Source: a candidate division FCPU426 bacterium (GTDB lineage: Bacteria; Oederibacteriota; Muellerivitia; Muellerivitales; Muellerivitaceae). From it: DNA of 64,000 nt. The notes under the pieces are model-generated. The model did not search any database, was not told where the DNA came from, and saw only the letters and a list, made by a program, of their open reading frames with translations. The position numbers and the translations under genes were made by a program. The stretch covers positions 124,001 through 188,000 of the forward strand of contig DAIDGV010000017.1 of the NCBI GenBank assembly GCA_027452205.1, written 5' to 3'. Every line of letters begins with the position of its first letter. Position 1 is the first letter of the stretch. Below are positions 39,616-41,201 of the stretch, in pieces.

Positions 39616-39690
39616 GCGGGCGTAATTCAGCGGTAGAATGCCACCTTCCCAAGGTGGACGTCGTGGGTTCGAGTCCCATCGCCCGCTCCA
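39616..39690 (+). tRNA. tRNA-Gly (anticodon CCC)
   Basis: Acceptor stem GCGGGCG/CGCCCGC, D-arm with CAGCGGTAGAATG, anticodon stem CCACC/GGTGG around loop TTCCCAA (anticodon CCC, reading GGG) and T-arm CGTGG-GTTCGAGT-CCCAT. Discriminator T and an encoded CCA end at 39690. A protein reading frame runs through it (see the next gene). Confidence 0.93.
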
Positions 39691-41201
39691 TTTTTTGTCT
39701 ATTCCTGTTCTTTTTCTTTTCACACCCCGGTCAGTCGACCGCTCAAGTGACAGCGGACACCACCTTGCCTTTCAGTCAAGGCCAGGTCGTTCTATTACCG
39801 GCCACAACGGCTTATTTAGGGGACATGCCCCATTTCATCGATTTGGTACCGAATGACTCACCCTTTCATACCCTGGGTGGGCTTCAGGCCCCTTTGGTGG
39901 GTTGGATCGATCCATTGAGCAAAAATTCGGTTGGGCCATTGGCGACTGGCCCTGGACTGTTCTTTGAGAACATTCCTTATCCACTGGCTTCGTCCCCGAT
40001 GAACTTTTTGCCAGCTGCCGGGACGATACAAGTGTTGGATTTTCCAGTTCAGGCCTGGCTCGGTCCCATGGCGGCGTCGGGGGCGGTCAATTTAACGGCT
40101 CCAGAAGCAACAGCGAAATCGAACAACCGGTTTTCGGGCTGGGGCGGGTCTGGTACAACCTTGGGCGTCGATGATCGGTTCCAGAGCGGTCTTTTGAACG
40201 CTGACCTCGATTACCGGCATGGCAATCCGACCGGCGGAAACCAGACCGATTCTTTCGATTTCATTTCAAAAGAAAACTGGTTTCGTACGGACAGCATTGG
40301 TTTAGGTTCTGGGCTTTTAGCCACCCAGGGACTGGGGAACGATCATTGGTATGCTTCCTATTTGAAGATGGATCTTTTGAGCCCCAACTTTCAGACCCTT
40401 CAGTTAAAACCCTATTATCAAAGCGCGCAAATTGGTGTTCAAACGGTCCAAGACATGGGGTTTTTCTTGGACTATCTTTTCAATTTAGCGGGTTTGGCCG
40501 AAAGCCATCTGGGCGGCGGGTTCGATTCGGCCACGGGCACCAATGTGTTATCCGCCAACCACAGCTTTATTCAATCAACGAATTTGGTCGATGTGTTGGG
40601 GGATGTTTCTCTGGACGCGGCTTTTCGATGGGATTTTTCCAGCGTGAACGATACGGCTTTCAGTACGGTTCTGGGCCTTCAGGGCAAATTCGACGCTTGG
40701 ATCCTTTTGGGTGATTATGACAAAGGTGTTTCGGCTTTGATCGGCCAGGATGTTCAGCAAACGGATATCGGTGTTCGGTACCAGCCGGATGATATTTGGA
40801 ATGTGACAGCCAAATACATTTATCAACAGTTGGGCCAGGCTGGCTACAACGGCGGAGACCTTCATTTGCAATTGAACGAGTTCGATGGCCTGTGGTTCTT
40901 TAAAAATATCGGTTTCGACGTCGAAGAAAGACTGTTGACCGGGGCGGGAAACTTTACCCAATACGACACGGGTTTAACCTGCCGGTGGAGTTTGATGTCC
41001 CAGGATCATTGGTGGGTGACCGGACGATGTCTTTCGAACGAGGCGGTCATTTTGGAAGCTGGGTTGGATTATGGGATCAGCAAAGAATGGAAGGTCTTTG
41101 GAAATTTTGAAAATATCGCCGGAATAGCGCTGGCTGTGCCCGATCTGGACAACCCTAGTGGTATGGTCGCGTCAGTTGGGGTTCAATATTCGGCGAATTG
41201 A
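39663..41201 (+). CDS. TonB-receptor-like outer-membrane protein; start lies within tRNA-Gly
   Basis: About 512 residues if started at GTG 39663. A hydrophobic export segment (IFCLFLFFFFSHPGQSTAQ) is encoded from the last base of the tRNA onward, with no in-frame ATG, GTG or TTG between the tRNA and this segment. The nearest candidates are GTG 39663 and 39654, both inside the tRNA; AAGGTGG (39651-39657) resembles an SD for the former. CTG 39705 or ATT 39690 are alternatives. The mature part has a plug-like section (IQVLDFPVQAWLGPMAASGAVNL echoes IEVxRGPxSxLYG) and then amphipathic beta strands to the C-terminus, as in a TonB-dependent receptor barrel. No TonB box is clear. Confidence 0.65.
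   Translation: MGSSPIARSIFCLFLFFFFSHPGQSTAQVTADTTLPFSQGQVVLLPATTAYLGDMPHFIDLVPNDSPFHTLGGLQAPLVGWIDPLSKNSVGPLATGPGLFFENIPYPLASSPMNFLPAAGTIQVLDFPVQAWLGPMAASGAVNLTAPEATAKSNNRFSGWGGSGTTLGVDDRFQSGLLNADLDYRHGNPTGGNQTDSFDFISKENWFRTDSIGLGSGLLATQGLGNDHWYASYLKMDLLSPNFQTLQLKPYYQSAQIGVQTVQDMGFFLDYLFNLAGLAESHLGGGFDSATGTNVLSANHSFIQSTNLVDVLGDVSLDAAFRWDFSSVNDTAFSTVLGLQGKFDAWILLGDYDKGVSALIGQDVQQTDIGVRYQPDDIWNVTAKYIYQQLGQAGYNGGDLHLQLNEFDGLWFFKNIGFDVEERLLTGAGNFTQYDTGLTCRWSLMSQDHWWVTGRCLSNEAVILEAGLDYGISKEWKVFGNFENIAGIALAVPDLDNPSGMVASVGVQYSAN

Follow-up and report, generated by a model that had tools for sequence, protein, structure and literature searches.

Where does translation of an outer-membrane protein begin when its reading frame runs straight out of a tRNA gene, with no ordinary start codon between the two? 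The question is posed by a locus (L001) in the window, the 64,000-nt stretch of DNA analysed here, which comes from a 2.9-Mb genome of the candidate phylum FCPU426. Its tRNA-Gly(CCC) is the only glycine tRNA with a CCC anticodon among the 43 tRNA genes of this genome; two further tRNA-Gly matches are separate full-length tRNAs. The protein frame, which ends at the stop codon 41199–41201, is open from 39531 and runs through the whole of the tRNA. Past the tRNA the sequence encodes IFCLFLFFFFSHPGQSTA, a hydrophobic export segment, followed by QVTAD, and from 39691 to the end of the signal peptide ATG, GTG and TTG are all missing from the frame; beyond the tRNA, a standard in-frame start codon is first met at GTG 39747, residue 2 of the mature protein. 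The initial annotation of this DNA had described an export segment that begins at the last tRNA base, with no ATG, GTG or TTG in between, and the window sequence bears this out. Also in frame are ATG 39543 upstream of the tRNA, CTG 39705 within the signal-peptide segment and, within the tRNA, a GTG at 39654 that lies in the AAGGTGG motif, additional to the T-stem GTG listed with the other features in Table 1.

Table 1. Features at and around the junction of tRNA-Gly(CCC) and the receptor gene (window coordinates; −1 is the last base of the tRNA).
Feature	Positions	Strand	Basis
TTGACA-N19-TATAAT, perfect hexamers; weak candidate promoter of a tRNA–receptor transcript	39455–39485	+	by eye
tRNA-Gly(CCC), CCA encoded	39616–39690	+	tRNA search, 65.6 bits
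AAGGTGG, SD-like, 3′ strand of the anticodon stem	39651–39657	+	sequence inspection
GTG, 5′ strand of the T stem (G49-T50-G51; −28), proposed start codon	39663–39665	+	
Nine tRNA codons read as (f)M-G-S-S-P-I-A-R-S (MGSSPIARS), candidate part of the n-region	39663–39689	+	
ATT, rival start codon; its A is the final base of the CCA end (−1)	39690–39692	+	
Remaining signal peptide IFCLFLFFFFSHPGQSTA, no Lys or Arg	39690–39743	+	
Mature outer-membrane β-barrel protein, TonB-dependent-receptor-like by predicted fold	39744–41201	+	
UPF0164-like (PorV-like) outer-membrane protein, after the receptor	41247–42167	+	

The nature of the protein was assessed from its predicted structure. An AlphaFold2 model from nine sequences has 22 barrel strands at modest confidence (mean pLDDT 60, pTM 0.58), and the best Foldseek matches in the PDB are FepA, Cir, BtuB and PirA, with TM scores to the query of up to 0.59. 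No Pfam family was matched at E≤1 by any of the nine members; because a Pfam plug or barrel match is lacking, we call the protein receptor-like only, and "receptor" below is shorthand for this. The closest pair of orthologues, L004 and L005, has a dN/dS of 0.25, which indicates that the gene is under purifying selection.

We compared the junction across 45 genomes of the phylum. Nine carry the receptor gene, eight from the family of the window's genome and one from a sister family (L009), and a wider contig search for the gene returned only contigs matching genomes already in this set. In all nine, tRNA-Gly(CCC) immediately precedes the receptor orthologue and shares its strand. The start-less pattern of the window is seen in seven of the eight family genomes (L001–L006 and L008), with the frame open through the 3′ half of the tRNA into the signal peptide. 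Between the tRNA and the mature part, none of these seven has an ATG or GTG. L001 and L003 lack TTG there as well; at +11 (L004 and L005) or +44 (L008) a TTG would leave too little signal peptide. TTG +20 in L002 is usable as a start and TTG +23 in L006 possibly so, which makes two genomes at most. Among the nine, only L009 has an SD-led ATG, GTG or TTG ahead of the signal peptide. Misassembly, which the initial annotation had raised, is excluded by the recurrence of the junction in seven independently assembled genomes. The junction of tRNA and protein gene is real, conserved and unusual.

How unusual it is can be gauged from other genes that follow tRNAs. We surveyed 181 tRNAs in five genomes (43 + 32 + 34 + 35 + 37). 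Besides the receptor, about a dozen genes have a frame that stays open from the end of a tRNA; named by eye from sequence, they include tilS, an M16 peptidase, fumarase-like, tadA, aminotransferase, thrS-like and glycosyltransferase-like genes. Those of them that appear to be real have all retained a start after the tRNA, either ATG or TTG plus SD. The start after the tRNA is missing only for the tRNA-Gly(CCC) receptor, in all four family genomes surveyed.

The positions of the junctions relative to one another constrain where translation can begin. In the seven start-less genomes, mature residue 1 lies 53, 110, 98, 41, 41, 74 and 74 nt from the end of the tRNA, five different lengths that all equal 2 modulo 3. 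If the frame were free, such agreement would arise with a chance of about (1/3)^5 = 0.004, counting six lineages with L004 and L005 taken once and with shared descent as a caveat: the seven genomes come from one family and so do not represent wholly independent lineages, and the receptor tree resolves little of their branching. Since the frame relative to the tRNA is kept, translation probably starts at or before the ATT at −1. A TAA stop in L002 stands directly before the tRNA frame, so all seven can share only a start within the tRNA or on its final base. GTG 39663 is the sole standard start codon common to the seven. As far as standard codons go, and apart from the TTG of L002 and possibly that of L006, the receptor frame reaches into the tRNA and finds no usable start behind it; with AUU 39690 the overlap would come down to one base. 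On this evidence from sequence, the start is probably inside the tRNA, as the initial annotation had suggested, most likely within it at GTG 39663 or else at its very end at ATT 39690.

Initiation inside tRNA-Gly(CCC), most likely at GUG 39663, is the reading we favour, at a probability of about one half. The composition of the signal peptides is consistent with it in part. By a home-made rule, we collected candidate signal peptides behind ATG starts with an SD in the window's genome, and 50 of 56 have Lys or Arg before the hydrophobic core; the six without look like membrane or cytosolic proteins. In L001, L004 and L005 there is no Lys or Arg before the core unless the tRNA-encoded Arg is translated. 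The remaining four of the seven (L002, L003, L006 and L008) encode Lys or Arg downstream of the tRNA and can do without the tRNA-encoded Arg. Conservation of the T-stem GTG is no evidence of its use; the triplet is fixed by tRNA function and is also present in L007 and L009, where it is unneeded. RNA folding puts the cost of opening 30 nt around the GTG at 17–21 kcal/mol. No SD for GTG 39663 is conserved across the seven start-less genomes. The initial annotation had placed GTG 39663 on the T-arm side and an SD-like AAGGTGG in the anticodon arm; both positions hold, but we rejected AAGGTGG as part of the start signal, because among the start-less genomes only L001 carries it. The six others have AAGCTGG, and AAGGTGG recurs in the ATG-bearing L007. 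A further step, which we hold somewhat more tentatively, is that a functional tRNA supplies both the start codon and the n-region of a signal peptide, that a transcript may become either glycine tRNA or receptor mRNA, and that this arrangement has been kept among proteins down to ~31–42% identity.

The main rival of GUG is AUU 39690, from which translation would overlap the tRNA by a single base, and tRNA 3′ processing would still remove the first base of the codon. All seven genomes that lack another start have ATT at the tRNA end, whereas the two with one read AAT (L007) and AGT (L009) there, and TT follows only 65 of the 181 surveyed tRNAs; against this, tRNAs often have T-rich 3′ flanks. 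Opening the surroundings of AUU is mostly cheaper than opening those of the GTG, and Lys or Arg follows AUU in L002, L003, L006 and L008. An AUU start would, however, give signal peptides of 14 (L004 and L005) or 18 (L001) residues with an uncharged n-region, and the fixed sequence before it leaves no possibility of a purine-rich SD. AUU is a rare and weak start codon in bacteria. Weighing these points, we consider initiation at AUU possible but on the whole unlikely.

A start after the tRNA at a near-cognate codon particular to each genome, on an mRNA released when the 3′ end of the tRNA is processed, would avoid competition with the tRNA altogether, and TTG +20 in L002 and TTG +23 in L006 would yield usable or nearly usable signal peptides. 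Starts past the tRNA would leave the spacer frame free, yet all spacers equal 2 modulo 3; moreover, CTG 39705 leaves 13 residues before the mature part and TTG +11 in L004 and L005 about 10, and neither the CTG nor the TTG codons have an SD. This explanation seems to us distinctly improbable. Translation from upstream, with the whole tRNA read as codons, finds some footing in the window, where the frame is open from 39531 and includes ATG 39543, but the L002 stop directly before the tRNA and upstream frames that differ in every genome make it very unlikely. We give as little credence to a defective, silent gene or a local assembly error at the junction: a gene without an ordinary start codon invites that suspicion, but the same junction recurs in seven genomes from different assemblies, the full-length barrel contains no internal stops, and the L004/L005 dN/dS noted above speaks against decay.

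Returning to GUG 39663 as the preferred start, we considered how the message would be made. The tRNA and the receptor lie on the same strand, the signal peptide abuts the tRNA, and no terminator-like site was found in 39200–39900. With no terminator and hardly any gap, if any, between the two genes, the simplest view is one primary transcript. The candidate promoter of Table 1 lies ~130 nt upstream of the tRNA, and its 19-nt spacing falls outside the range of our promoter scan. A TAGAAT in the D arm, a candidate promoter inside the tRNA, was discarded as it has no −35 partner by eye. Elsewhere in the window's genome, tRNAs at L115, L029, L048, L110 and L108 stand 17–110 nt before same-strand protein genes (an M16 peptidase, tilS, an ATG-started gene, a fumarase-like gene and tadA), and a tRNA-Met/tilS pair recurs in G001, G004 and G008; tRNA–mRNA co-transcripts may be common in the FCPU426 lineage.

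The sequence of events we propose is as follows. The spacer and start region of the receptor gene would have been lost within the FCPU426 family, leaving an upstream promoter to produce a joint tRNA–receptor transcript. On this transcript the GUG in the T stem would start the receptor with no conserved SD, and the nine final tRNA codons would supply the start and a positive n-region, MGSSPIARS. The transcripts translated would presumably be a minority that are unfolded or unprocessed as tRNA, or not yet so. Processing to tRNA would remove the receptor start, so that each molecule would meet one fate or the other; in a variant, the message would be a cleaved tRNA whose 3′ half is still attached to it. 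That tRNA folding and initiation would be mutually exclusive, as the initial annotation had proposed, can be soundly inferred, given the energy needed to open the region around the GTG. Co-transcription, the exact start codon and any regulatory use are what we infer from these sequences.

We saw no sign of a conserved switch in folding; duplex energies are unremarkable. In genus g3 (L004–L006), the tRNA is predicted to lose its acceptor stem when joined to 30–45 nt of receptor sequence, but shuffled 60-nt flanks have this effect in 29–40% of cases and only L004 stands out at 30 nt, so the predicted refolding probably reflects chance. We also set aside additional DNA conservation past the tRNA: L004 and L005 show no difference over the first 27 nt, but 41 of the 475 78-nt windows match this level of conservation, which is not significant. 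A short leader frame that ends at a TAA at tRNA positions 8–10 is present in the window and differs in every genome, and an antisense match to Rfam HPnc0260 was below the gathering score and driven by the tRNA.

The two genomes outside the start-less pattern bear on its history. L009 has a 165-nt spacer and a TTG start with a GGAG SD. L007, from the same genus as L003, has its own ATG at +47 with no clear SD, and a TAA between tRNA and gene closes its frame to the tRNA. The initial annotation had offered an integration or deletion event that removed the original start, and loss of spacer and start agrees with a sister family that keeps both. The likeliest history is of an old neighbourhood in which the family ancestor lost spacer and start; L007 most likely regained an ATG, after which its open frame decayed. 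This order of loss and regain is our reading of the comparison, and the receptor tree leaves it unsettled. In L002–L008 a TPR-like gene ending in ...KAMVKLQSIEKLSHN, or close variants, finishes 51–66 nt before the tRNA, which places the tRNA of these seven family genomes within a same-strand row of genes. The window differs: its upstream neighbour is PpiD/SurA-like on the opposite strand, and no TPR-like gene is found there. Downstream, the start of a protein similar to the UPF0164-like one follows the receptor gene in most relatives.

Several known systems resemble the FCPU426 junction in part. The tpr frame of E. coli is a small protamine-like frame in a distal region, and tyrT-tpr reportedly carries this protein-coding segment downstream of the tRNA. 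As in the FCPU426 case, a coding stretch is joined to a tRNA on one transcript, whereas here it is a conserved exported receptor with no start after the tRNA. In tRNA-tufB-type operons the transcript is probably likewise common to tRNA and protein gene, but the latter has its own start past the tRNA, as do the other tRNA-adjacent genes of the window's genome. Archaeal integrase genes of the SSV type overlap the tRNA into which they integrate, the attachment site lying inside the integrase gene. There too, a tRNA gene is partly overlaid by a coding frame; the FCPU426 locus, in contrast, has no integrase, the product of its frame is a barrel protein, the two other tRNA-Gly matches of the window's genome give no sign of a duplicated attachment site, and the arrangement persists within a single bacterial family. 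Initiation at AUU is known from infC, which encodes a translation factor and is autoregulated; the likeness is to the rival codon here, and the FCPU426 receptor differs in having no SD before AUU. Animal mitochondrial tRNA and protein genes also share bases on one strand, but those overlaps span a few bases in very compact genomes, whereas the overlap here may reach 28 bases in a bacterial genome of 2.9 Mb. The tyrT-tpr studies (Altman et al. 1981; Bosl and Kersten 1991) are cited in PMC11623569, and tRNA attachment sites form part of the background in PMC8371274. Among the titles and abstracts retrieved from open-licence literature we found no case of a protein start inside a bacterial tRNA. 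To our knowledge, there is no conserved bacterial case in which a tRNA supplies the start of a protein; tRNA finders and gene finders handle tRNA genes as non-coding. If the proposal is true, the locus would be a natural case of a single RNA with two exclusive fates, and a lost start codon would be replaceable by an adjacent structural RNA. Initiation in tightly folded RNA would become directly testable, and receptor synthesis would be linked to tRNA maturation or damage.

Two observations concern other tRNA sequences. In the window, tRNA-Lys(TTT) at 47875–47952 (region 47864–47970) has its acceptor stem lengthened by perfect pairing of leader and trailer, AAAGCCTTGGGT with ACCCAAGGCTTT; the pairing includes the CCA region and is followed by a T-rich run, so that the whole resembles a tRNA in the loop of a terminator-like hairpin. 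The second comes from a different family of the phylum, in which the first 37 nt of tRNA-Gly(CCC) are repeated 6–20 kb upstream of the intact copy, at G010:C74:49457–49493 (intact copy 69074–69148) and G021:C23:46506–46542 (intact copy 52711–52785; L117). An IS21-like istA/istB pair lies between repeat and intact tRNA in G021, and the repeat resembles a scar left by integration at the 5′ half of tRNA-Gly(CCC).
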